Shown here: positions 3,630 through 26,536 of the stretch, piece after piece
Layout: every line of letters begins with the position of its first letter
Numbering within the stretch: position 1 is the stretch's first letter
NCBI RefSeq assembly: GCF_025813715.1
Contig: NZ_CP107532.1
Span: 248,001-312,000 of the forward strand
From: Methylobacterium sp. FF17
GTDB lineage: Bacteria; Pseudomonadota; Alphaproteobacteria; Rhizobiales; Beijerinckiaceae
Direction: 5' to 3'
DNA: 64,000 bases
Program-made: the position numbers and the translations under genes
Notes under the pieces: generated by a model
What the model was told of the DNA's origin: nothing
What the model saw: the letters and a program-made list of their open reading frames with translations, nothing else
Databases searched by the model: none

Positions 3630-4313
3630 ATGGCGAACAGGCATGAACACGCACGCGGGATCCTGAGCGCACGGCCGGGGTCGCCCGCCGAGGCCGGCGC
3701 GGGGGATCGCGTCGGGCAGGATACCCTACGGGAGCGCCTGCGCGGCCTCCTGCACGTTCCCGCCTCGCTCGATCCCGCGGGGCCGGTGCCGCTGCTGATC
3801 ATGCTGCATGGCGCCGGGGCTCGGGCGGGCGACGTGATGCCGATGGTGGCGCCGGCCGCCGACGACCATGGGGTGATCGTTCTGGCACCCGACGCGCGGG
3901 GAGCGACCTGGGACGTCATCCAGCCGGGATTCGGGCCCGACGTGGCGACCCTCGACGAGGTGCTCGCGGCCATGTTCCGGGCATATCCCATCGATCCGCA
4001 GCGGATCGCCATCGCGGGCTTCTCCGATGGGGCTTCCTATGCCCTGTCACTGGGGCTCGCCAACGGCAGTCTGTTTCGCGACATCCTGGCGTTCTCGCCC
4101 GGTTTCGCGGCCCCGGCCCGAACCGAGGGCCGCCCTCGCATCTTCATCGCGCATGGGCGCGAAGACCCGGTGCTGCCCTTCGCGCGCTGCGGCGACCGCC
4201 TCGCCGGTTCGCTCCGGAGCGCCGGGTACGATGTCGAAGACAGGCCGTTCTCCGGCGGGCACGTGGTGCCCACCGAGATGGTGCGGGCGGCGTTCGCCCG
4301 GTTCCTGGGCTGA
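3630..4313 (+). CDS. Alpha/beta-hydrolase esterase (phospholipase/carboxylesterase type)
   Basis: A serine esterase of 227 residues from this ATG. The oxyanion-hole region is LLIMLHGAGA, the nucleophile elbow GFSDGAS places the Ser near residue 132, the acid is the Asp in HGREDPVLP, and the His is in FSGGHVVP close to the C-terminus. This order and size match the phospholipase/carboxylesterase (acyl-protein-thioesterase-like) family. No signal peptide is seen, so it should act in the cytoplasm. A GTG at 3573 would add 19 arginine-rich residues, and neither start has a strong ribosome site. It is followed 63 bases later by the erythromycin-esterase-like gene in the same direction. Confidence 0.8.
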   Translation: MANRHEHARGILSARPGSPAEAGAGDRVGQDTLRERLRGLLHVPASLDPAGPVPLLIMLHGAGARAGDVMPMVAPAADDHGVIVLAPDARGATWDVIQPGFGPDVATLDEVLAAMFRAYPIDPQRIAIAGFSDGASYALSLGLANGSLFRDILAFSPGFAAPARTEGRPRIFIAHGREDPVLPFARCGDRLAGSLRSAGYDVEDRPFSGGHVVPTEMVRAAFARFLG

Positions 4314-4376: not shown

Positions 4377-5681
4377 ATGGCGCCTTCGACCAAGCACAAC
4401 CCCATCGTCGACCACCTGCGGGGGGCGGCCGAACCGTTGCCCGCGCCGGATGCGCCGGGCTTCGGGGCCTGCTTCGACCGGTTCGGGGAGGCCCGGATCG
4501 TGCTGCTGGGCGAGGCCACCCACGGGACGTCTGAGTTCTACCAAGCGCGGGCGGCCATCACGCAGCACCTGATCGAGCATCACGGCTTTCGCGTCATCGC
4601 GGTGGAGGCCGACTGGCCGGACGCGGCGATGATCGACCGCTATATCGGGCATCGCGCCGCCACCCCGTTTCCGGGGGACGCCTTCCGGCGCTTCCCGACC
4701 TGGATGTGGCGCAATGCGGAAATGCTGGACTTCGCCCGCCGGCTCCGCGACCTCAACATCGGCCGGGCCCCCCAGGACCGGGTGCGGTTCCGCGGCCTCG
4801 ACGTCTACAGCCTCGGCGCCTCGATGGCGGCGGTTCTGGATTATCTCGACCGGGTCGATCCCGGCGCGGCGCGCCAGGCCCGCGACCGCTACGGCTGCCT
4901 GACGCCCTGGCATGCCAAGCCGGAGCGCTACGGCCGCGAGGTGATGTTCGGCGTCAAGCACCCGTGCGAGGCCGCCGTCACCGAAATCCTGACCGACCTT
5001 CAGGACAAGCGCGCCGCCTACGCCGCGCAGGATCCGGACGCCTACGTCGATGCGACGCAGAACGCCCGGATCGTACGCGCGGCGGAGCAGTACTACCGCA
5101 CCCTGTACCGGGGCTCCGTCGAGTCCTGGAACGTGCGCGACCGGCACATGTTCGAGACGCTGCAGACCCTGGTCGCGGGCGGGGACAAGGCGGTGGTGTG
5201 GGCCCACAACTCTCATATCGGCCATGCGGGCGCCACCGCGATGGGGTGGGAGGGCGAGTTCAACATCGGCGAACTCGCCAAGACCGCTCACGGCGACGCG
5301 GCCGTGCTGATCGGCTTCGGGACCGACCGGGGCACGGTGGCGGCCGCCGACGACTGGGACGCGCCGATGCGGATCATGGACGTGCGCCCTGCCCGCCCCG
5401 ACAGTCACGAGGCGCTGTTCCGCGAGGCCGGCCTGCCGCTCAGCCTGACCGACCTGCGCGAGGCACAAGCCCTGCGCGAGGCTCTTGCCCAGCCCCGTCT
5501 CGAGCGCGCAATCGGCGTCGTCTACCGGCCGGACACCGAGCGGGTGAGCCACTATTTCGACGCGGTGCTGCCCGAGCAGTTCGACGCCTATGTCTGGTTC
5601 GAGGAGACCCGCGCGGTCACGCCGCTGGCGCGCAAGCCTGCGGGGGCCGGCGAGGACCTGACCTTTCCCTCGGGCCTCTGA
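4377..5681 (+). CDS. Erythromycin esterase family protein
   Basis: A 434-residue member of the erythromycin-esterase (Ere) superfamily. The family's conserved active-site positions are visible: GEATHGTSEFY (Glu and His) near residues 40-50, VEADWPDAA (Glu), and VWAHNSHIG (His) in the second half. Only some relatives hydrolyse macrolides; many, often encoded with stress genes, have unknown substrates, so resistance should not be assumed. The ATG follows GGAGG with a six-base gap, a better start than the GTG thirty bases upstream. No export signal is seen. It ends convergently against a small minus-strand gene, and its stop codon lies inside a palindrome. Confidence 0.85.
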   Translation: MAPSTKHNPIVDHLRGAAEPLPAPDAPGFGACFDRFGEARIVLLGEATHGTSEFYQARAAITQHLIEHHGFRVIAVEADWPDAAMIDRYIGHRAATPFPGDAFRRFPTWMWRNAEMLDFARRLRDLNIGRAPQDRVRFRGLDVYSLGASMAAVLDYLDRVDPGAARQARDRYGCLTPWHAKPERYGREVMFGVKHPCEAAVTEILTDLQDKRAAYAAQDPDAYVDATQNARIVRAAEQYYRTLYRGSVESWNVRDRHMFETLQTLVAGGDKAVVWAHNSHIGHAGATAMGWEGEFNIGELAKTAHGDAAVLIGFGTDRGTVAAADDWDAPMRIMDVRPARPDSHEALFREAGLPLSLTDLREAQALREALAQPRLERAIGVVYRPDTERVSHYFDAVLPEQFDAYVWFEETRAVTPLARKPAGAGEDLTFPSGL

Positions 5682-6972: not shown

Positions 6973-8409
6973 TCAGGGCCGGAACGTACCGTCGCGTAAG
7001 GCGCCCTCGATCGCCTCCAGGCTGCGCCCGGCGGTCTCGGGCACGAAGCGGAGCACGAACAGGAAGGCCGCGACGTTCAGGGCGCCGTAGAGCAGCATGA
7101 CGCCGCCGGTTCCGAGCGCGTCCACGAGGGTGAGGGCCGAGGCCGTGACCACGAGGTTCGAGCCCCAGACCATGGTCGCCTGGGCGCTGGTGCCGGCCGC
7201 GCGCACCGAGAGCGGGTACATTTCCGAGCCGCTGAGCCAGCCGACCACCTGGATGCCGCCGGCATTGAAGAACATGAAGGCCAGCAGGCAGGCGAGGATC
7301 GGCCAGGAGCGGTCGCCGCCCGCGAGCCCGAAGGTGAGCAGGCCCCCCAGTAAGAAGAGACTGAGGGCGGCGCCGGGCAGCATGAACAGCGAGAGGTTGC
7401 GTCGACCGACGCGGTCGACGATGGCGAGGCCGATGGCGGTCATCACCGCGTAGACGAGGCCGAGCCAGAGGGTCGAGCGCAGGGCGGTGGCGTGGTCGAC
7501 ACCGACCCCGGTCAGCAGCGTCGGCGCGTAGTAGATCATCATCTCGATGCCGGTGAGCTGCGTGAAGGCGGCGATGCCGAGCGCCGCCAGCACGGCGGGG
7601 CGCACCCAGCCCTGCGCAAGGCCGCGCCAGCCCTTCACGGGGGCGGATTTCTCGACCTCCACCACCCGCTCGATCTCGCCGAGTTCGCGGTCGAGATCCG
7701 TCCCCGGCGGGCGTACCCGCGCGAGATCCCGGCGGGCGGCATCGCTCCGGTCCCGGCCCACGAGCCAGCGCGGGCTTTCCGGCAGGACGAACGTGCAGGC
7801 GCACAGGATCGCGGCCGGGAGGATGGCCGCGCCGATCATCCAGCGCCAGGACAGCATCTCGCGGAATTCGGAGGCGACGAGGTTGGCCGAGAGGATGCCG
7901 AGCCCGATCGCCACGTTGAACATCGTCACGCAGCGCCCGCGCCGGTTGGCCGGGGCGAGTTCGGCGAGATAGACCGGGACCGCCTGCGAGGAGGCGCCGA
8001 CGGCCAGCCCCAGCACGATCCGGGCGGCGATGAGGAGGCCGGCACTCGGCGCAAGGCTGGAGGCGAGGGCGCCGACGACGTAGACGGTCGCCAGCACCGT
8101 CAAGGTCCGGCGCCGCCCGACGCGCTCGGTGAGCCAGCCGCCCGCCAGCGACCCGCCGATGGCGCCCACCAGGATCGCGGCGGCCGTCATCTCCTGCATG
8201 CGGTGGTCGAGGCCGAACTCGTCGCGGATCGCCAGGAGGGCGCCCGAGATGATCCCGGTGTCGTAGCCGTAGAGGAAGCCCGCCAGGGCCCCGACGCCCA
8301 CCACGAAGATGAGAAAGGGGCTGAAGCGCGCCCGCGCCCGCCCGCCCTCGGTCGCGCCGGCGACCTCCACCGTCGTGGGCAGGCGCGACGCCTCAGCGCG
8401 CGCGGACAT
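6973..8409 (-). CDS. MFS sugar/polyol porter
   Basis: A 478-residue sugar-porter-family MFS protein with about twelve membrane segments. Signatures are GFLYGYDTGIISGALL in helix 1, the loop motif ERVGRRRTLT between helices 2 and 3, the PESPRWLV motif before the central loop, DRVGRRNL in the second half and PETAGRSLEAIE after the last helix. These identify a proton-coupled sugar or polyol importer in the inner membrane. I start at the ATG giving MSARAEASRL, which overlaps the end of the upstream dehydrogenase gene by 17 bases, so translation is probably coupled. Together with the dehydrogenase and the broken phosphatase it forms one transcription unit. Confidence 0.88.
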   Translation of the reverse strand: MSARAEASRLPTTVEVAGATEGGRARARFSPFLIFVVGVGALAGFLYGYDTGIISGALLAIRDEFGLDHRMQEMTAAAILVGAIGGSLAGGWLTERVGRRRTLTVLATVYVVGALASSLAPSAGLLIAARIVLGLAVGASSQAVPVYLAELAPANRRGRCVTMFNVAIGLGILSANLVASEFREMLSWRWMIGAAILPAAILCACTFVLPESPRWLVGRDRSDAARRDLARVRPPGTDLDRELGEIERVVEVEKSAPVKGWRGLAQGWVRPAVLAALGIAAFTQLTGIEMMIYYAPTLLTGVGVDHATALRSTLWLGLVYAVMTAIGLAIVDRVGRRNLSLFMLPGAALSLFLLGGLLTFGLAGGDRSWPILACLLAFMFFNAGGIQVVGWLSGSEMYPLSVRAAGTSAQATMVWGSNLVVTASALTLVDALGTGGVMLLYGALNVAAFLFVLRFVPETAGRSLEAIEGALRDGTFRP

Positions 8410-13110: not shown

Positions 13111-13284
13111 TCCGCGCGGTGGCGCCATCCTCGCGTGCCGCGGCCTTCGGCGAGGATGGCATGCGCCGAAGCGGGTTGCGGGCGGAGCCGGCCGATGCGA
13201 TAGGGCGCGCCGGGTGCTCGGTCCGTCGGTCGGAACGGCAGGGTTTAGCGTTGGTCGGGCCGCCAGCGTCGGAGACCTGCGACC

Positions 13285-14484
13285 ATGCCGTCACTCCTGC
13301 GTCCCCTTTCGATGTTGCGCGCTACGCTCGCCAACGAGGCCGGCGGCGGCATCGTCCTGATGGCGAGCGCCGCGCTCGCCCTGGTCATCGCCAACTCGCC
13401 GGCCGCGCCGATCTACTTCGCGACGCTCGAGGCCTATCTCGGACCCTTGAGCGTGCTGCACTGGGTCAACGACGGCCTGATGGCGGTGTTCTTCCTGCTC
13501 GTCGGCCTGGAGATCAAGCGCGAGGTCCTCGACGGTCGGCTGCGCACCTGGCCGGACCGCGTCCTCCCGGGCATCGCGGCTTTGGGCGGCATGGTCGCCC
13601 CCGCCCTGGTGTATGTCGCCGTCAACCGGCACTCGCCCGAGACCCTGCGCGGCTGGGCGATCCCGACGGCCACCGACATCGCCTTCGCGCTCGGGGTGCT
13701 GGCCCTGCTGGGCTCGCGCGTCCCGGTCTCGCTCAAGATCTTCCTGACGGCGCTCGCCATCATCGATGACCTCGGCGCGGTCCTCATCATCGCCGCGTTC
13801 TACACCGCCGACCTGTCGTTGCCGATGCTGGGCGGCGCGGCCGTGGTGTTCGCGATCCTGTTCGGGATGAACAAGGCGGGGGTCAGCCGGCTGACGCCCT
13901 ACCTCGCCCTCGGCGCCGTGCTGTGGTTTCTGGTCCTCAAGTCGGGCATCCACGCCACCATCGCCGGCGTCCTCCTCGCCCTGACGATCCCGCTCCGCCT
14001 GAGCGTCGGCAAGCCGGACGATCCGACCTCCCCGCTGCACATCCTCGAACACGCGATCCACCCGTGGTCCGCCTACCTGGTGCTCCCCGTGTTCGGCTTC
14101 GCCAACGCGGGCGTCTCGTTCGCCGGCATGACGACCAAGATGCTGCTCGATCCCGTGACCCTCGGGGTGGCCCTCGGCCTGTTCGTCGGCAAGCAGGTCG
14201 GCGTGTTCGGGGCCGTGGTCGCCGCGGTGAAGCTCGGCCTCGCACAGCGTCCCGCCCATGCCGGGTGGTGGCAGCTCTACGGGCTCTCGCTCCTCTGCGG
14301 GGTCGGCTTCACCATGAGCCTGTTCATCGGATTGCTGGCCTTCGCCGACAGCCCAGAACTGGAAGCGGAGACCAAGATCGGCGTCCTGCTCGGCTCCCTG
14401 TCCTGCATGGCTTTGGGGGCTCTCGTGCTCCTGCTCGCCCCGAAATCGGAGATGGCGGGCCTTCGGACACCGAAGGGCGCCTGA
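13285..14484 (+). CDS. nhaA: Na+/H+ antiporter NhaA
   Basis: A 399-residue NhaA-type antiporter, close to the 388 residues of the E. coli protein, with about twelve hydrophobic helices. The family landmarks are [37 protein letters not shown], and the ion-binding Asp pair in [15 protein letters not shown] (residues about 161-162). The unwound helix region [14 protein letters not shown] is also present. It exports Na+ in exchange for protons at the inner membrane and supports alkaline and salt tolerance. The ATG at 13285 follows a GGAGAC sequence. It stands alone, with 174 bases upstream and 239 bases downstream free of genes. Confidence 0.95.
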
Positions 14485-18994: not shown

Positions 18995-20146
18995 CTAGAC
19001 GTAGCGGACCCAGCGCGCGGTGCTGCGGCGCTTGAACCGGACGGCCCAGCGGCAGGCCGCGTAGAGGGGAAGAGCGAGCGCCCCGGCGATGAGCCAGAGC
19101 GTGCCGGGCGACGCGGCCTCGATCCGGCCGCTGGGGCCGGCGAGGCCGAGGGCGAGCAGGCCGTCATGCAGCGCGCGCAGCGCGTAGAGATGGACCACGT
19201 AGAAGAACAGCGGCACGCCCCCGAAGGTGCAGAGCCAGCCGATCCCCCGGGCCGGGACGGCCTCCAGCGCCGCGAGCAGGATCAGCCCGAGGCCGAGGGT
19301 CGCGAGCAGGAAGTCGGCCGAAGGGGGATACTTCGTCAGGTTGAGGAACGACATCAGCGTGGCGGCCGGCGTGGCGCCGGCCTGCCAGGGCACGGGTTCG
19401 CCGTAGCCGTTCAGGCCGCGCAGGACCAGGAACGCGGTCAGGGCGGCGGCGCCAAGTCCGAGGAGCCAGCGACGGCGGGCGGCGGGTGTGGCTGCGACGT
19501 GGAGCGGCCCGAGAGCGTAGCCGGCCGCGATGACGCCGATCCAGGGCAGGACGGGGTACGAGGTCCGCGCCACGCCCCAGGGCAGGTCGATGAAGCCGCG
19601 CTGGTGGAGGATCGCCCAGGCGGTGTAGCCCGTCTGGCCGGGCGCGAGGACGAGGGGCGAGAGCAGGTTGTGCCCGAGCATGATCGCCAGGGCGACCCCG
19701 ACGAGCGCCGGGCGCGGCAACCACAGGAGCGCCGCCAGGGCGATCATGCTGAGGCCGATCGCCCAGATCACCTGCAGGTAGAGGATCGGCGGCAGCGGGC
19801 TCGCGGTCCAGGCGAGGTTCACCAGGGTCAGTTCGAGCAGCACCAGGACGAGGCCGCGCTGGAACAGGAAGGCGGCGGTGGCGCGGTCCCCGTGCCGGGC
19901 CCGGTAGAGGGCGGCCGAGAGACCGGTGAGCAGGACGAAGACGGGCGCGCAGAGATGCGAGGCCGTCCGGCTCCAGAACAATCCGGGCGCGGTGGTCGCA
20001 AGGTCCATCGGGTCCCGGACCTGGGCGTGCAGGAAGAAGAACTCTCGCACGTGGTCGACCAGCATGAGCAGCATCACGAGGCCGCGCAGGGCATCGATGG
20101 ACAGGATACGCCCGGCCGCGCGTCCGGTCTGGGCTGCGTCCGGCAT
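18995..20146 (-). CDS. Membrane protein of the heparan-alpha-glucosaminide N-acetyltransferase-like (DUF1624) family
   Basis: A 383-residue polytopic membrane protein with roughly ten helices. The opening RILSIDALRGLVMLLMLVDH is the conserved 'R-x-x-x-D-x-L-R-G' start of DUF1624/YeiB/NagX-like membrane acyltransferases. The middle contains YPVLPWIGVIAAGYALG and the end GGVPLFFYVVHLYAL, both typical of the family; the His of VVHLY and the Asp and His of MLVDH are candidate catalytic residues. It probably transfers acyl groups across the inner membrane. It starts 47 bases after the second DUF3526 permease gene and is the likely last gene of the B12-riboswitch operon, though its role there is unknown. 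Confidence 0.75.
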   Translation of the reverse strand: MPDAAQTGRAAGRILSIDALRGLVMLLMLVDHVREFFFLHAQVRDPMDLATTAPGLFWSRTASHLCAPVFVLLTGLSAALYRARHGDRATAAFLFQRGLVLVLLELTLVNLAWTASPLPPILYLQVIWAIGLSMIALAALLWLPRPALVGVALAIMLGHNLLSPLVLAPGQTGYTAWAILHQRGFIDLPWGVARTSYPVLPWIGVIAAGYALGPLHVAATPAARRRWLLGLGAAALTAFLVLRGLNGYGEPVPWQAGATPAATLMSFLNLTKYPPSADFLLATLGLGLILLAALEAVPARGIGWLCTFGGVPLFFYVVHLYALRALHDGLLALGLAGPSGRIEAASPGTLWLIAGALALPLYAACRWAVRFKRRSTARWVRYV

Positions 20147-20193
20147 CACGGCTCCATCGACTCGTTGCGGGTGGGTTGCGAAGCCCGAGCGCG

Positions 20194-21672
20194 TCACGCC
20201 GGCCAGGCCTTCAGGCGGGCGCGGGCGCACAGGGCCAGGACGAGGCCGAGGGCGAGAAGCACGGCCAGCGCGCCGAGGGTGTATTCCTGTCCGGACCTCG
20301 CCGCCGGCGCGGCCTCGAAGCGGGGCACGGCGTCGTAGGCGTCGAAGTCGAGCCGTGCCCGGCAGCCGTCGCAGACCGGCACAGGGTTCAGCGCCTGGGC
20401 CACGATGCGCGGTTCGAAGAACCGGCGCAGGCTGTGCCGGTACTCGGCGGCCGAAGCCAGGAAGGCGGCGTGGCGGCCCGCGTCTGTGCCGGCCGCGCCC
20501 TGGAGGGCGAGGTCGAGGGCGGTGGCCGGCGAGAGCAGCGCGAGCCACCGGCTCGTCGCGGCGACGGCCGCCTCATAGCTCCGGAAGGCCGCCCGGTGGG
20601 GGGCGAGTTCCGCGTCGTAATAGGCGTCGCGGGCCAGGCGCTTGATCTCGGGTGCGTCGCGCAGGTCGGGGCGCGCCGCTCCGCCGGGGATCCGGGCCAG
20701 CCATTCGGCCGTCAGGCGCGGGCCCGTGCCGCCGTTGTAGAAGGCGTCCTGGGCCTGTCGGCTCGCATCGATGGCCGCGATGCGCGAGGGCTGCGCCACG
20801 AGGCGGTCGGTCGCGATCGAGGCAGCCCCGGGCACCGCCACGGTGAGCAGGGTCCAAGCCAGCACGAGGATGGAGAGCGAGGCGACCGCCCCGCGCCACA
20901 GGGTCGCCACGAGCGCGCAGGCCGCGACCCAGAGCAGGATGCTGGCGGCGAGCAGCGCCGCGAGCCAGGCGAGCATCGCGGCGACGCCCGGACCGTCCGT
21001 GACCGCACCGGTCGCCAGGAGGGCGAGCCCGGTCTCGGCGAGGATGACCGGAACCGCGATCCCCGCGACGGCGCCAAACTTCGCCCCCGCGACCGCGCGC
21101 GGTCCGATCGGCTGTGCGGCGATCAGCCGGAGCGTGCCGGAATCGTGTTCGCTCGAGAGCCGGCCTCCCGCCAGGGCGATGACGCAGAGCGGCACCAGGG
21201 CGACGAGGACGAAGGCGAGGTCGAAGGCGCCGAGCTTCAGCTTGGCCGCCGCGCCGAGCTCGTACTCGACGTCGTCGAAGACCGTTCCGAAGCCGAAGTT
21301 CATCCGCAGCAGCATCGGCTGCACATCGGATTGCCCGGTGGCGAGGGCGGCGAGCGGGGTCGGCGGCTTGACCGCGTGGACGGTCAGGAACTGCGTCATG
21401 TAGCCGAAGGCGTGGGTCGGGTCCTGCCAGTAGTTCACCGTCACCGGCGTCGGCCTGGCGTAGCGGGCATGGGCCTCCCGCGCGGCCGTCACCGCCGCCG
21501 CTTCCGCCGCGGCGGCACGGGCGAGGGTCGCGCGTTCCAACGCGACCCGGGACGCGCCCGTCTGCGCCCCGATGATCAGGGCCACGAACAGCGCCGCGAA
21601 GATCGCCCAGGTCAGGCGCTCGCGCAGGAGGAGACCGGTTTCGAGGGCGAGGAGGCGAAGCGCCCGTCTCAT
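20194..21672 (-). CDS. ABC-2-type permease, DUF3526 family (second subunit)
   Basis: A 492-residue membrane permease. One helix near the N-terminus (LTWAIFAALFVALIIG) is followed by a large periplasmic domain of about 140 residues, then a cluster of five helices (AFDLAFVLVALVPLCVIAL onward), a second extracytoplasmic domain and a last helix. The segment LSSEHDSGTLRLIAAQPIGPRAVAGAK is the cytoplasmic coupling-type motif of this permease group ('E-x-G-T-L-R-L'). Its ATG overlaps the TGA of the upstream permease gene by four bases. The two permeases should form a heterodimer with the ATPase encoded upstream. An odd CDGCRARLD motif near the C-terminus (a CxxC) could bind metal or form a disulfide. 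Confidence 0.82.
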   Translation of the reverse strand: MRRALRLLALETGLLLRERLTWAIFAALFVALIIGAQTGASRVALERATLARAAAAEAAAVTAAREAHARYARPTPVTVNYWQDPTHAFGYMTQFLTVHAVKPPTPLAALATGQSDVQPMLLRMNFGFGTVFDDVEYELGAAAKLKLGAFDLAFVLVALVPLCVIALAGGRLSSEHDSGTLRLIAAQPIGPRAVAGAKFGAVAGIAVPVILAETGLALLATGAVTDGPGVAAMLAWLAALLAASILLWVAACALVATLWRGAVASLSILVLAWTLLTVAVPGAASIATDRLVAQPSRIAAIDASRQAQDAFYNGGTGPRLTAEWLARIPGGAARPDLRDAPEIKRLARDAYYDAELAPHRAAFRSYEAAVAATSRWLALLSPATALDLALQGAAGTDAGRHAAFLASAAEYRHSLRRFFEPRIVAQALNPVPVCDGCRARLDFDAYDAVPRFEAAPAARSGQEYTLGALAVLLALGLVLALCARARLKAWPA

Positions 21673-23063
21673 GGGGTCAGCCTGCGCACGGCCAGCGTCG
21701 CGGCCCCGCCGAGGGCAGCCAGCCAGAGCGCCAGCATGGTGGCCGGCAGCGCTGCCTCGCGGGCCGAGTCCGCGAGGGGAACCGGCCGGTGCCGGAACGG
21801 CGGCACCGTCTCCCAGAGTTCGTGGTCCGCCATGTAGAGCCGTCCCTGGCCCTGCGGGTTGTCGATCAGCGCCCGGTTCATCCGCTCCGAGATCGCGCGC
21901 CGGTAATGCTCGGCCGCCCAGACGAAGTGGACGTGCTGCGCGAAATCCGTCCCCGCCAGCGGGGCCGAGAGGGCCTGGAGGGCGATGCGCGGGGAGAAGA
22001 GCCCGGCCCAGCCATAGGCGCGCTCCTGATGCAGCAGGCTGTCGAAGAAGGCACCGAACGCGGCGTCGAACACCGCGAAGTTGTGCTGCTCGTTCTCGCT
22101 CATCATCAGGCCGCGAAGGTCCACCGGCAGGGCGTCGGGCTCGGTCACGCCGTAGCGGGCGAGCACGGCCTGCGCCCGGGCGTCGTTCGCCTCCGCCGTG
22201 CGGTGGGCCCGGAACGCGCCGTCGATACGGGCGCGCGTCTCCCGGTAGGACAGGGCCGGCGCGCCGGCCTCCACCGCGATCGTCGCGAGCCGGGGCGCGG
22301 CGACGCAGATCAGGACCCAGGCCAGCAGCGCGGCGGCGAGCGCCGCGCGGGCGGTGCGCGCGGCGAGCGAGAGCGTCATGGCCAGCACCAGGAAGACGGA
22401 CGCGTAGGCGAGTTGCGCCGCGATCCAGAGGCTGAGGCGGGCCCAGAGATCCCAGTCCGGCGCCTCCAGGCTCGCCGCCGCCAGACCGCCCAGGATTCCG
22501 AGGGGCAGCCCGACGACGAGGATCGTCGCGGCGAGGAGGGCCGCGAGCCGCCCCGCGAACAGCCGGCCCGGCGCGGCACCGTTGCCCAGCGCCAAGCGCA
22601 GGGTGCCGCGTTCGCGATCGGCGGCGAAGGCGGAGAAGCCGAGCAGGATCGCGGCCAGCGGCACGATCAGCTGCACGATGTCGGCCACGCTGCCGAGGCC
22701 GGCCCGCGCCAGCGGATTGGCGTCCTGCACCGCCCGGAACACCGCATCGTTGAACAGGTGGGCCTCGATGCGCACCATGCGCCCGGTATAGGGCTCGACG
22801 CCGGGGTCGAGGATGGCGAGCGGCGAGGACGGCTTGAAAACCCACAGACCGTAATGGTCGGCCGAATGGGGGTTCTTCGCGTCCTGCCCGAGCCAGCGCC
22901 CGCGCTCGGCCTGCGTGATCGCCCCGACATCGGCGGCCTCGCGGCGCGCCTGCTGCCAGGCGCCAGCCAGAGCGATGCCGAGGAGCGCGACGAGGACGCC
23001 GCCGATCCAGCGGAGCCGGGCCTCGCGCAGCACCTGGCGCAGTTCGGCGAGGATCAGCCTCAT
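21669..23063 (-). CDS. ABC-2-type permease, DUF3526 family (first subunit)
   Basis: A 464-residue relative of the next gene with the same plan: N-terminal helix (WIGGVLVALLGIALAG), periplasmic domain containing NPHSADHYGLWVFKPSSPLA and LDPGVEPYTGRMV, then several helices around VADIVQLIVPLAAILLG, the coupling motif ADRERGTLRLALGNG, another large outer domain and a final helix. The first block is characteristic of DUF3526 proteins. Family members occur beside TonB-dependent receptors and a lone ABC ATPase; their cargo is not established. Both ends overlap neighbouring genes by ATGA, so all subunits are translationally coupled and probably made in equal amounts. Confidence 0.85.
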   Translation of the reverse strand: MRLILAELRQVLREARLRWIGGVLVALLGIALAGAWQQARREAADVGAITQAERGRWLGQDAKNPHSADHYGLWVFKPSSPLAILDPGVEPYTGRMVRIEAHLFNDAVFRAVQDANPLARAGLGSVADIVQLIVPLAAILLGFSAFAADRERGTLRLALGNGAAPGRLFAGRLAALLAATILVVGLPLGILGGLAAASLEAPDWDLWARLSLWIAAQLAYASVFLVLAMTLSLAARTARAALAAALLAWVLICVAAPRLATIAVEAGAPALSYRETRARIDGAFRAHRTAEANDARAQAVLARYGVTEPDALPVDLRGLMMSENEQHNFAVFDAAFGAFFDSLLHQERAYGWAGLFSPRIALQALSAPLAGTDFAQHVHFVWAAEHYRRAISERMNRALIDNPQGQGRLYMADHELWETVPPFRHRPVPLADSAREAALPATMLALWLAALGGAATLAVRRLTP

Positions 23064-23782
23064 GAGGCGAGCCGCTCGATGTAGAGCCGTTCCAGGCCGA
23101 CATGGTCGAGCTGCCCGGGGTCGATCTCCTCGATGATGCGGCCGGCCCGCAGCACCCCGACCCGGTCCGCCACCTCCTTGACCCGGTAGAGGTCGTGGGT
23201 CGCCATCAGGATCGCGGTCCCACGCCGGGCGGCCGCGCGCACCAGGGTCGAGAAGTCGGCCGCGGCCGTCGGATCGAGGCCCGAGGTGGGCTCGTCGAGG
23301 AGGAGGAGCCGGGCGCGGCGCGCCAGCGCGATGGCGATGCCGACCTTCTGGCGCATGCCCTTCGAATAGGTCGCGGCCCGGCGCCCCCGCGCCTCGGGCG
23401 CGAGCCCCGCTTCGGCCAGGAGGTCGTCGGCCTGCGCCGCGGACAGGGCGAGCCCGGCCAGCGTCGTGAAGTAGCGCAGGTTCTCCCGTCCCGAGAGCGC
23501 GGGGTAGAGCGCCACCTGCTCGGGAATGTAGGCGATGGCGGCCCGCGCCGCGATCGGGTCCAGGCCGGCATCGACTCCGCAGACCCGGACCGTGCCCGCA
23601 TCCGCGCTGAGGAAGCCGAGGATGAGGTTGATCGTCGTGGTCTTGCCCGCTCCGTTCGGCCCGAGGAGGGCGAAGACCTCGCCGGCCCGCAGCGTCAGGT
23701 TGAGGCCGTCGAGGGCGTCGCGGCCGCCGAACCGTTTGACCACATCCCGGATGGCCAGCACGGCCTCGTCGGACCCCGCCAT
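23060..23782 (-). CDS. ABC transporter ATP-binding protein
   Basis: A 240-residue single nucleotide-binding domain. Walker A is LLGPNGAGKTT, the Q-loop region reads IAYIPEQVALYPALSGREN, the signature is YSKGMRQKVGIA, Walker B is LLLLDEPTSGLDP, and the switch His is in ILMATHDLYRVK. The 'SKGMRQK' form and the D-loop are typical of the DRA/ABC-2 exporter-type ATPases, not of BtuD-type importers. It pairs with the two DUF3526 permeases that follow. Its ATG overlaps the TGA of the TonB-dependent receptor gene (ATGA), and its own TGA overlaps the next ATG in the same way. Confidence 0.92.
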   Translation of the reverse strand: MAGSDEAVLAIRDVVKRFGGRDALDGLNLTLRAGEVFALLGPNGAGKTTTINLILGFLSADAGTVRVCGVDAGLDPIAARAAIAYIPEQVALYPALSGRENLRYFTTLAGLALSAAQADDLLAEAGLAPEARGRRAATYSKGMRQKVGIAIALARRARLLLLDEPTSGLDPTAAADFSTLVRAAARRGTAILMATHDLYRVKEVADRVGVLRAGRIIEEIDPGQLDHVGLERLYIERLAS

Positions 23783-25926
23783 CAGAACCGCACCGAGACG
23801 GTGCCGGTGAAGCGGCGCGGCGCGCCGGGATAGACCCGGAACACGTTGAGCGAACTCTCGTAGATCACGCTGTCGAAGATGTTCTCGACGTTGAGGCCGA
23901 AGCGGATGTTCTCGTAGCGGTAATAGGCGAGCGCGTCGGCCACCACGTAGGCCGGCAGGACGAAGCCGGTGCCGCCGGCATCCCCCGCGCGCTCGCCCAC
24001 GCCCCGAACGCCGCCGCCGAGGCCGAGGCCGGACCAGGGCCCGGACTGGACCTCGTAGACCGCGAGCAGGCTGCCGCTGTGCTTCGGAATGTTGATGAGG
24101 GCGGCCCCCACCGGCAGGACATTGTCCTTCGTCACCACCGCGTCGGCGTAGACGTAGCCGCCGATCAGGCGCAGTTCGGGCGAGATCTGGCCGGTGGCCG
24201 TGAGTTCGAAGCCCTGGCTGCGCACCGCGCCCGCCGCCAGGGAGAAGCCGCTGTTGCTCGGGTCGGGCGTGAGCACGTTCTCGCGCTCGATATGGAAGGC
24301 CGCTCCCGTCAGGCTCAGCGCCCCGCCGTAAAGGTCGAGCTTGGCGCCGACCTCGTAGCCGATGCCGGTTTCGGGCGCGAACGGCACCCCGCGCGAGGCC
24401 GCCGCAGCATCGGGGCCGATGTTCGGCCGGAAGCTCGTGCCGACATTGGTGTAGAGGGCGAGTTCGGGCAGCGGCTGGTACACGAGGCCGGCGCGCGGGG
24501 TTGCCGCCACCCGCGTCTGCTCGACGTCGCTGCGCGTGACGCGCTCGCGGAAGGACTGCTCGAAGGCGTCGAACCGGACGCCCAGCAGCGCCTTCCATTC
24601 GGGGCTGAGGGCGATCTGGTCCTGCGCGTAGAACGCCGTGTTGGTGACGCGCTCCAGGTTGGCCCGCCGAATGGTGAGCGGCGGGAGAGCCTGCCCGTAG
24701 CGCGGCTCGTAGATGTCGATGGAGAACGGATTCTGTCGAAAGTTCGAGCGGTCGTAGATCGTGCGGCTGTCGGTGCTCTCGCGCTCGAAGCCGAGGAGCA
24801 GGGTGTGGCCGAGATCCCCGGTCGCGAACCGACCGACCACCTCCGCCTGGCCGATCGCCGTATCCCAACTGTAATCGCGATAATTCCGGTCACGGGACAC
24901 CGTCCGGTTGTCGGCCGCGATCGCGCGGATCTCGGCGGATTCCCCCTCCAGGGTACCCGTGTTGAAATGCGCTCCGAGGCGCATCTGCCAGTCGGCGTCG
25001 AAGCGGTGCTCCAGGCGGACCTGCAGGGTGTTGGAGGTCTGCTCGGTGCTCTGGCCCGGCTCGCCGAGGAAGCGCGAGATCGGCAGGAACCCGAGCTGCC
25101 GGTTGATGGCGATCACGCCCCGGTCGAAGACGATGCGGTTGCGCACGAACTCGGTCTCGACGGTGAGCTTGGTGTCGGGTGTGATCTGCCAGCTGAGGGC
25201 GGGGGCCACGAACAGCCGGTCGCCGTCCACGAAATCCCGGAAGCTGTACTGGTGCCCCCCGGCGAAGTTGAAGCGGTACTGAAGCGTCTTGTCCTCGTTG
25301 AGGGCGCCGCCGGCATCCACCGTGCCGCGAAACTGCTCGAACGAGCCCCAGAGCCCACCCATCTCCACGAAGCGTTCGGCGGTGGGCTGCTTGGTGATGA
25401 TGTTGACCACGCCGCCGGGATCGCTGCGCCCGAACAGGGCCCCGCCCGCGCCCTTGAGCACCTCGATGCGCTCGACGTTCTGGGTGTCCGGCGGCGGCGG
25501 CGAGCCGCGATTGATCGCGAAGCCGTTCTTGAAGATCTCCGAGGTGGTCACGCCGCGCACGGCGTAGCTGAACACCGTCAGGCCCCCGAAATTGTTCTGC
25601 TGGGAGACGCCGGGCGTATAGTTGAACACCCGGTCGACCCGCGTGGCGGCAAGGTCGGTGATGACCTCGCGCGACGCCACCGTAACGACCTGGGGGACGT
25701 CGCGCTGGGGTGTGTCGGTCTTCGTACTGCTCACGGCGCGGGCCGCACTGAATCCGGGCGTCGGGCCGATCAGACCGATCGCCCCCTCCGGGACGTTCAG
25801 GCCGATGCCGGTTCCCTCCACGGTGAGGGTCTCCAGGGTCACGGCCGCGTCCTCCGCGAGCGCCGCCCCGGGCAGGGCCAGGGCGGCCAGGGCGACGCTT
25901 AGGCGCAAGCCGTTTTGGAAGGACAT
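23782..25926 (-). CDS. TonB-dependent outer-membrane receptor under B12 riboswitch
   Basis: A 714-residue outer-membrane receptor. A signal peptide (MSFQNGLRLSVALAALALPG ending AALA, cleavage before ED) is followed by a plug domain with VPQVVTVASREVITDLAATR, TPGVSQQNN and the LFGRSDPGGVVNIITKQPT block typical of ferrisiderophore receptors. About 22 beta strands follow, ending RRFTGTVSVRF with the terminal Phe required for Bam assembly. By sequence it would be called a siderophore receptor, yet a cobalamin riboswitch lies upstream in the same direction. Cargo may therefore be a corrinoid, a cobalt chelate or a siderophore. Longer upstream starts would run through the promoter and leader. It heads a chain of four genes with ATGA overlaps. 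Confidence 0.9.
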   Translation of the reverse strand: MSFQNGLRLSVALAALALPGAALAEDAAVTLETLTVEGTGIGLNVPEGAIGLIGPTPGFSAARAVSSTKTDTPQRDVPQVVTVASREVITDLAATRVDRVFNYTPGVSQQNNFGGLTVFSYAVRGVTTSEIFKNGFAINRGSPPPPDTQNVERIEVLKGAGGALFGRSDPGGVVNIITKQPTAERFVEMGGLWGSFEQFRGTVDAGGALNEDKTLQYRFNFAGGHQYSFRDFVDGDRLFVAPALSWQITPDTKLTVETEFVRNRIVFDRGVIAINRQLGFLPISRFLGEPGQSTEQTSNTLQVRLEHRFDADWQMRLGAHFNTGTLEGESAEIRAIAADNRTVSRDRNYRDYSWDTAIGQAEVVGRFATGDLGHTLLLGFERESTDSRTIYDRSNFRQNPFSIDIYEPRYGQALPPLTIRRANLERVTNTAFYAQDQIALSPEWKALLGVRFDAFEQSFRERVTRSDVEQTRVAATPRAGLVYQPLPELALYTNVGTSFRPNIGPDAAAASRGVPFAPETGIGYEVGAKLDLYGGALSLTGAAFHIERENVLTPDPSNSGFSLAAGAVRSQGFELTATGQISPELRLIGGYVYADAVVTKDNVLPVGAALINIPKHSGSLLAVYEVQSGPWSGLGLGGGVRGVGERAGDAGGTGFVLPAYVVADALAYYRYENIRFGLNVENIFDSVIYESSLNVFRVYPGAPRRFTGTVSVRF

Positions 25927-26249
25927 CGACAGGCTCGGATGCGACGGCGGTGAGCCGGCCTCCCGCCCCGCGCGGAGCGCGCATGACGGCGAGACGGCCC
26001 CGGACCAGGGAGGGGATGAAACGTTATTACGTTTCCAAGCCTTGCCGTGCAACCAGAACGTGGTCCGACCGGACTCCTCCGGAGCCGGATCGGATCCGGG
26101 CGTCCCGCTGGTATCGAGGTTTTCGCGCAGGCGCATCGACACGATCCAAGAGCTTTGGCTGGTGTCAGGCCGAGCGGCACGCGCCGTACCGCCCCGACGC
26201 ATCGGGCGGCACCGATCATGCGACCCACCGGAGCACCCCGCCCGAGAGA
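25927..26249 (-). other. Leader between the B12 riboswitch and the receptor gene
   Basis: About 320 bases of transcribed leader on the minus strand. Apart from the putative second promoter at 26018-26052 I see one imperfect GC hairpin (CCGCCCGA / TCGGGGCGG) around 26180-26205 without a T-run. There is no convincing small reading frame. An expression platform may be formed by the hairpin or by control of translation, which I cannot decide from the sequence. Confidence 0.4.
26018..26052 (-). promoter_or_regulatory. Sigma70-like promoter with inverted-repeat operator over the -10
   Basis: On the minus strand, TTGCAC (26052-26047) is separated by exactly 17 bases from TAATAA (26029-26024). The -10 lies inside the perfect inverted repeat GAAACGT-AATA-ACGTTTC (26035-26018), seven-base arms around four bases. 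A repressor bound there would block the promoter. The promoter lies downstream of the riboswitch, so its transcripts would escape B12 control. The repeat resembles AT-rich metalloregulator boxes such as Zur, but the identity of the regulator is not known. Confidence 0.5.
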
Positions 26250-26434
26250 CGTTCTAGGCCAAGGCAGGTCTCCTGGCTCGCGGATCGACGCCCCTGCCCG
26301 GCCTTCCCGGTGACGAGCACCAGTGACCCTGTTCGGCAGCGGCTCACCGCTCACAGTTGCGGGGGCAGCTTCGGCATCGCCCGCACGGGCTCGACCGAAT
26401 TCCCTCTTAGCTCGCGGTACCGGACCGCAAGAAC
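26250..26434 (-). promoter_or_regulatory. Cobalamin (adenosylcobalamin) riboswitch
   Basis: Read on the minus strand, the conserved cobalamin-aptamer elements occur in order. AAGAGGGAA lies at 26408-26400. GCTGCCCCCGCAACTGTG lies at 26369-26352. A B12-box-like GTCACTGG is followed by CCGGGAAGGC near 26325-26300. The 3' hairpin GCCAGGAGACCTGCC lies at 26277-26263. GTTCT (26434-26430) and AGAAC (26255-26251) close the P1 helix. When cobalamin binds, these RNAs normally lower expression of the downstream genes. Here those are the TonB-dependent receptor and the DUF3526 ABC system, about 320 bases downstream. Confidence 0.93.
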
Positions 26435-26536
26435 CTTGACGGTTCGACGTTTCCATGTGCCGCCGGTGGAGTCAATCCGCTGCCGGAAGCGTCGATACCC
26501 CGGTCGGGCGCCCTCCCCCGCAGGACCACAGGCGGC

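Follow-up and report, generated by a model that had tools for sequence, protein, structure and literature searches.

A cobalamin riboswitch and a probable Zur operator in the leader of a TonB receptor and DUF3526 ABC-2 operon of Methylobacterium

An operon in the methanol-consuming bacterium Methylobacterium sp. FF17, found in a 64,000-nt stretch of its genome (the window, to which the positions below refer), encodes a TonB-dependent siderophore-type receptor (receptor A), an ABC ATPase, two DUF3526 ABC-2 permeases, and an accessory membrane acyltransferase. Direct computation established which parts it has, how far they are conserved, and that the leader of this one operon has control sites of two kinds, a cobalamin riboswitch and an 18-bp Zur-type palindrome. 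On balance it is probably a metal-chelate acquisition system, functionally akin to znuK/znuGHI of Caulobacter and under two-signal control in Methylobacterium, and the evidence suggests that it serves to collect metals in short supply, for example cobalt or zinc, and not vitamin B12 itself. A TonB receptor with an ABC-2 metal system is already known (Caulobacter), and riboswitch-controlled cobalt receptors have been predicted (PMC7689651). Neither the combination of a Zur-type box, a B12 riboswitch, and a NosY-like DUF3526 pair nor the domain name DUF3526 itself was found in the open literature searched.

The operon and its leader

All five genes are on the minus strand, in the order receptor, ATPase, permease 1, permease 2, acyltransferase (Table 1). 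A first-pass annotation, made from the letters of the DNA alone, had described a cobalamin aptamer followed by a receptor, an ATPase, and two DUF3526 permeases chained by three ATGA overlaps, with an acyltransferase 47 bases further on and no BtuC, BtuD, or BtuF. Infernal bore out the aptamer, with 120.3 bits over the whole of Rfam model RF00174 (E 1.2e-29; gathering score 31.5). The receptor, ATPase, and both permeases are all above Pfam or NCBIfam cut-offs, the receptor at 340.6 bits against TIGR01783 (NCBIfam cut-off 223.5). The 47-base gap between permease 2 and the acyltransferase stands, and none of the operon genes is a BtuC, BtuD, or BtuF. Of the overlaps, those between ATPase and permease 1 and between the two permeases are indeed ATGA, while the receptor and ATPase genes overlap by a single base, in TGATG. 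A FecCD (PF01032) profile search of the whole genome gave no match (control: a match in 13 of 14 genomes), so in this strain a chelate could not continue inward by the FecCD route.

Table 1. Features of the operon and its leader in the window, and matrix scores of Zur-type boxes at the operon across Methylobacterium loci (numbered L018 and so on)
Feature	Position	Strand	Evidence or score
TTGAC, -35-like element of putative promoter P1 for aptamer RNA	26471..26475	-	leader comparison
Cobalamin riboswitch aptamer	26246..26453	-	RF00174 full length (1-189)
CGGGCGGGGTG..CCGG element directly 3' of aptamer, candidate expression platform	26225..26244	-	conservation
TTGCAC-N17-TAATAA, putative second promoter P2 overlapped by Zur-type box	26024..26052	-	sequence reading
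18-bp palindrome GAAACGTAATAACGTTTC, probable Zur operator, between aptamer and receptor	26018..26035	-	matrix score
TonB-dependent siderophore-type receptor (receptor A)	23782..25926	-	PF07715, PF00593, TIGR01783
ABC ATPase	23060..23782	-	PF00005/ABC_tran, 105 bits
Permease 1, DUF3526 ABC-2, NosY-like fold	21669..23063	-	PF12040, 82.1 bits, cut-off 25
Permease 2, DUF3526 ABC-2	20194..21672	-	PF12040, 47.3 bits, cut-off 25
HGSNAT_cat/DUF1624-like membrane acyltransferase, accessory	18995..20146	-	PF07786, 50.8 bits; Acyl_transf_3, 31.3 bits
Box before aptamer	36-43 bp from first aptamer base		L019 18.5, L021 23.2, L170 7.7, L171 24.9, L172 10.2 bits
Box before aptamer	36-43 bp from first aptamer base		L173 19.4, L174 24.8, L182 12.2, L183 15.9, L184 8.8 bits
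Box after aptamer			window 24.6, L018 25.5 bits
Box, leader without riboswitch			L168 25.4, L179 31.4, L181 (ahead of ABC genes) 25.7 bits

The riboswitch is flanked by conserved sequence on both sides. A TTGAC element is found at -22 (once -20, once -23) relative to the first aptamer base in 15 of 18 riboswitch leaders, and from this regularity is putatively part of a promoter, P1, for transcription of the aptamer. Just 3' of the aptamer, CGGGCGGGGTG is present in all 15 receptor leaders compared and absent ahead of cbtA in L024. A strict consensus scan of the window leader listed neither P1 nor P2 as a promoter and gave no intrinsic terminator, and folding 3' of the aptamer was not clearly above that of shuffled sequences (z -0.98). 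The P2 layout recurs in L036 and L168, and with TTGCAT in L018 and L035; in the window its -10-like TAATAA lies within the Zur-type box.

There are at least four cobalamin riboswitches in this genome (150 of 471 candidates were scored). The other three precede a TonB receptor gene (L022), a second siderophore-type receptor gene (L023), and cbtA, cobW, and cobN (L024). The window also has an nhaA-I riboswitch (13212-13268, 48.2 bits) directly ahead of an nhaA-like gene (13285-14484).

The Zur-type box

Searches with Caulobacter-type boxes mostly missed the Methylobacterium ones, finding only that of L046 at one mismatch, so a matrix built from metal genes was needed. It was derived from 13 distinct sites upstream of genes of the zinc substrate-binding protein (SBP) type and of COG0523 genes; SBP loci L206, L209, L211, and L215 and COG0523 loci L237 and L241, with best sites poor or elsewhere, were left out of training. 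The SBP is a ZnuA-family metal-binding protein (PF01297), with zinc AztC as its best NCBIfam model. A box upstream of the metal-binding-protein gene is common: among the best 30 of 58 matching genomes, 24 loci have one matching at 15 or more of 18 positions (shuffles, 0 of 900) and 27 at 14 or more (shuffles, 3 of 900). Upstream of COG0523 genes it reaches 14 of 18 in only seven of 30 loci.

With this matrix, which includes no receptor sites, the box in the window scores 24.6 bits. It is the sole site in the 64 kb at two or fewer mismatches (0.06 expected), by a consensus partly derived from that same box. Among its kin elsewhere in the genome are sites ahead of a ZnuA-family gene, a COG0523 GTPase gene, the L023 receptor gene, and a truncated acyltransferase gene; since the genome-wide scan gave control counts of 9 and 12 vs. 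13 and 16, many of the two-mismatch matches are due to chance. Across the genus, 12 of 18 riboswitch leaders have a match of at least 7.7 bits, ten before the aptamer and two after it, and all three remaining operons (L168, L179, L181) have one of at least 25 bits. Where the box precedes the aptamer, it is 14-21 bp upstream of the TTGAC element in all ten leaders. Seven leaders (L169, L170, L172, L173, L180, L182, L184) also have a palindrome-like TGTG..CACA element upstream of the Zur-type box, some 60-77 bp before the aptamer.

Two of 129,903 background positions reach 8 bits, one being the window's own box and the other in L138. Over 502,358 bases of genus loci, 25 matches reach 15 bits or more: 11 in leaders of the DUF3526 operon, six in other receptor leaders (L023, L249, L253, L257, L260, L266), six at SBP, COG0523, and Zur-like loci (L134, L135, L136), and two farther upstream of a receptor gene (L179 at 9126, L263 at 3544). 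As a control, 20 riboswitches outside the operon, from five genomes, were scanned from 300 bp before to about 450 bp after the aptamer. Five have a box above 20 bits, four of them before kin of a third receptor type, receptor C (L249, L253, L257, L260); the fifth (L266) is followed by a stand-alone receptor A. None of the remaining 15 has one in the scanned span (maximum 1.4 bits), and the idea that riboswitch and Zur-type box are always paired in the genus was rejected on this basis. Receptor C, about 62% identical to the receptor B described below, has both riboswitch and box in L023 and in the four control loci; no ABC genes were identified beside it in the stretches examined.

Matches to the Fur family (PF01475) in the genome number only three: Irr and two Zur-like proteins. 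One of the two has 7dh7 and 4mtd, a zinc uptake regulator, as its nearest solved relatives; the other is more divergent. The gene for the divergent one (PF01475 match 2611379-2611696) is in L135 (C1:2611000-2624000), along with Zur-type boxes at 798, 877, 5598, and 7143, a TonB receptor gene, and a truncated paralogue of the acyltransferase gene, whose open frame contains a box; this locus has the look of a rearranged remnant of a system of this kind. In L046 (Methylobacterium sp. R2-1), a gene for a metal-sensitive repressor (4453-4731; PF02583, 73.4 bits; matches to FrmR and RcnR, the closest NCBIfam models, fall below the cut-offs) is found just ahead of an operon with a Zur-type box only, with a further box upstream at 4060.

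Distribution within the genus

PF12040, the DUF3526 family, is found in 24 of 111 genus genomes, and in four of 385 genomes drawn from the class, the window's own counted. Permease 1 is present in 22 of the 24; the other two have pieces of permease 2 only, one on a short contig (L185) and one that looks like a relic (L186). The L178 contig ends within the receptor gene, leaving 21 leaders that could be assessed. In 18 of these (the window, L018-L021, L169-L177, L180, and L182-L184) a riboswitch above the gathering score precedes the receptor gene that heads the operon, and one more operon has an internal riboswitch, so the survey bore out, for the Methylobacterium operons, the association of DUF3526 operons with B12 riboswitches whose absence would have counted against the first-pass annotation. 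The internal case, L181 (3912-8281), has a split layout: a Zur-type box is found ahead of the ABC genes, and permease 2 is followed by the riboswitch and then by the receptor gene, whose product is 56% identical to receptor A. L168 and L179 have no riboswitch at the operon. In the permease 1 tree each of these is nested among riboswitch bearers, the window grouping with L018 and L168 (support 96/91) beside other Methylobacterium rows, so controls have been swapped or lost on the same operon.

Receptors have also been exchanged while the ABC genes stayed. Five loci (L020, L175-L177, L179) have receptor B, whose identity to the receptor A of the window does not exceed 34% where the two align. 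The acyltransferase varies as well: 13 receptor-A operons, that of the window among them, have a homologue 3' of permease 2, and L181 has one 3' of the receptor; none was found in receptor-A locus L180 or the five receptor-B loci. L170 and L178 stop too early to judge.

Relatives outside the genus

A scan with 34 aligned permeases confirmed at least 559 relatives, of which the best 80 loci were examined; 69 of these (1,021,902 bases) are from outside Methylobacterium and Methylorubrum. Exact GTTA-N5-TAAC occurs just four times in the 69, always at the upstream end of an operon-type receptor frame (L058, L063, L082). L058 is titled Bacillus sp. 2B10, but its permease 1 groups with that of an uncultured Sphingomonas, and the record is probably mislabelled or contaminated. 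In L032, a locus of the class survey, the receptor and ABC genes diverge from the stretch between them that contains GATGTTATAT, and the same ten bases also occur in the published znuK operator (PMC4176598). Many of the best 80 loci, for example in Acidobacteria, have no receptor directly before the ATPase, as judged with the few receptor seeds used. Canonical Fur boxes (GATAAT-N7-ATTATC) are absent from all 80; a repeat with arms eight bases apart is found in Massilia and is taken up below.

Receptor and permeases

The receptor is not of the B12 type by its profile score, 49.9 bits against TIGR01779 (cut-off 599.7). It matches solved BtuB over residues 65-211 only, which is the plug, and its nearest solved relatives are the enantio-pyochelin receptor and FoxA-type receptors. 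The PDB label "CntO" appears beside "FoxA" among these relatives and was not used as evidence for opine metallophores.

By structure comparison, permease 1 belongs to the NosY fold. It has an invariant set of residues between membrane helices one and two (Q60, H66, H70, and H102), while permease 2 has no histidine at all among columns conserved at 90% or more (38 sequences aligned; two rows under 400 aa left out).

Comparison with known systems

The closest parallel is in Caulobacter crescentus, where znuK (CC1517) and znuGHI (CC1518-1520) are bound and repressed by Zur (PMC4176598; also in the review PMC6103462) and znuK is needed under zinc starvation (PMC4176598). The statement in the first-pass annotation that no function had been assigned to such a system was in this respect too strong. 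As in that case, the operon comprises a TonB receptor, an ABC-2 ATPase, and two ABC-2 permeases, and the probable Zur box, as read in the window, overlaps a -10-like element, in Caulobacter the arrangement of a repressor (PMC4176598). The Caulobacter receptor and ABC genes are separate units with one operator sequence in common (our reading of Table 1 of PMC4176598), whereas in the window they form a single co-directional operon with a cobalamin riboswitch.

Two accounts link a receptor to cobalt supply, as proposed here: in Novosphingobium a riboswitch-controlled TonB cobalt receptor was predicted (PMC7689651), and in M. extorquens AM1 the cobalt limitation that plasmid-bearing cells showed on methanol was relieved when the TonB receptor operon META1_1076/1077 was overexpressed (PMC2773004). 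The available portions of these accounts mention neither an ABC-2 DUF3526 pair nor a Zur box. A 2021 review notes that no cobalt-specific outer-membrane receptor had been confirmed (PMC7689651).

Other resemblances are partial. NosDFY (PDB 7o0y, 7znq, and kin) is a copper-site ABC complex, while the partner of the ABC pair here is a TonB receptor, and neither NosD nor NosL is found among the operon genes, to which that search was confined. Permease 1 is also longer than NosY (464 residues vs. approximately 250-275 resolved) and has the histidine set. With BtuB-BtuCDF the operon has in common a B12 riboswitch ahead of a TonB receptor, but the receptor is siderophore-type, the genome has no FecCD permease, and the operon has no binding protein.

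Contrary evidence and alternative readings

Several observations weigh against a zinc- and cobalt-responsive chelate system. The likeness to znuK/znuGHI (CC1517-CC1520) comes from gene make-up; at the level of sequence, the C. vibrioides genome has a PF12040 match. The Zur-like protein scores 101.7 bits against the NCBI Zur model (cut-off 167), and the zinc-type SBP 314.2 bits against AztC (cut-off 350), with a manganese SBP model second. By matrix scan, four riboswitch leaders (L020, L175, L176, L177), all with receptor B, have no box. Two more (L169, L180) fit just an after-the-fact 15-base leader consensus, at 15/15 and 14/15, and not the matrix at that place, while L170, L184, L172, and L182 score 7.7-12.2 bits. 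Because matches of 7-12 bits (to 11.5) also occur outside leaders, these four rest in addition on their constant position. Among the control riboswitches, some without a box precede similar receptors, of receptor A kin at 56% identity (L248, L252), receptor B (L262), and family C at 70% (L264). A box upstream of TTGAC would also fit activation by Zur, by analogy with the Caulobacter zinc-efflux operon (PMC4176598). Outside the genus, Lysobacter and Polymorphobacter kin have no Zur box, and Massilia L045 and L047 have a Fur-like GATAAT-N8-ATTATC (7150-7300) between divergent receptor and ABC genes, a repeat that suggests iron control of the same module. Finally, FecCD is found in 99 of the 111 genomes of the genus, and every carrier of permease 1 except the window's strain has it (21 of 22). 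Its lack therefore characterizes this strain and was rejected as a defining feature of the system.

ABC-2 folds are usually those of exporters, and the pair could be one, recycling an emptied chelator or secreting a self-made metallophore while the receptor handles uptake. The operon has no binding protein, and below the NosDFY entries the list of structural matches to permease 1 is headed by ABCG25, a mycobacterial efflux pump, and ABCA4, all of which would suit export. That NosDFY entries stand above them suits the metal-chelate reading, and we consider simple export unlikely.

Corrinoid uptake, in which the receptor would import B12 or cobinamide and the ABC-2 pair would carry it across the inner membrane in place of BtuCDF, is also unlikely. 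B12 riboswitches classically control btuB, a plasmid-borne btuB is described in M. extorquens CM4 (PMC3621897), and a strain without any FecCD permease would need some other inner-membrane route for a corrinoid. Against these are the receptor itself, far under the B12-receptor cut-off and like BtuB in the plug alone; the Zur-type box and the znuK/znuGHI precedent, which indicate metal; the location of the CbtA, CobW, and CobN genes behind another riboswitch of the genome; and the presence of FecCD in all the other operon carriers. Receptor type and Zur-type box together led to its rejection as the leading reading. The corrinoid cargo considered in the first-pass annotation thus gained no support; its other suggestions, an alternative cobalt-complex transport system or an energy-coupled periplasmic device, were the better guesses.

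It is least likely of all that the palindrome serves another regulator, for instance the divergent Zur-like paralogue (C1:2611379) or one of manganese type, leaving zinc out as second signal: the two Zur-like Fur proteins are both under the NCBI cut-off and the window box is somewhat unlike the SBP box, but the window box scores highly by the SBP- and COG0523-trained matrix, COG0523 genes are common Zur targets (PMC6103462), and the sole third Fur-family match is Irr.

A possible mechanism and its implications

For the metal-chelate system favored here, cobalt fits the riboswitch and the genus, and zinc fits the Zur-type box and znuK/znuGHI. Cobalamin would shut the riboswitch and zinc-loaded Zur would act at the palindrome, so that the system would be made according to the cobalt/B12 and zinc status of the cell; a chelate system carrying both metals would account for the status of either being able to close the operon. 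In the window, where the box overlaps putative P2 after the aptamer, P2 would be a zinc-controlled promoter and either signal could open the operon. In the ten relatives with the box before the aptamer, zinc and B12 would instead act in series on one transcript. The receptor would bring a Co(II) or Zn(II) chelate into the periplasm, where the NosY-like ABC pair would spend ATP on it; probably the invariant histidines of permease 1 would be the place where the metal is freed, or else the empty chelator would be cleared. The freed ion may then enter by separate systems, of the AztABC/ZnuABC type for zinc and CbtAB for cobalt.

Taken as a whole, the picture in which one TonB receptor and a NosY-like ABC machine that strips cobalt and zinc chelates in the periplasm are gated together by an RNA that senses B12 and a zinc sensor bound to DNA is put forward only tentatively. 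In it, control of the operon would have shifted across the genus among four states: the two signals in series, the two in parallel, the riboswitch by itself, and Zur by itself. The receptor/DUF3526 module under zinc-, possibly iron-, and B12-type control is perhaps a general partner for metal-chelate receptors.

Overall, the leader of this receptor-ABC operon has both of the controls that would be expected of a cobalt/zinc chelate system, in a genus whose methylotrophic growth can be cobalt-limited, as observed with plasmid-bearing M. extorquens AM1 (PMC2773004). The operon suggests a role for DUF3526 ABC-2 permeases that can be put to the test, and its relatives form a natural series in which one operon is found with differing control sites.

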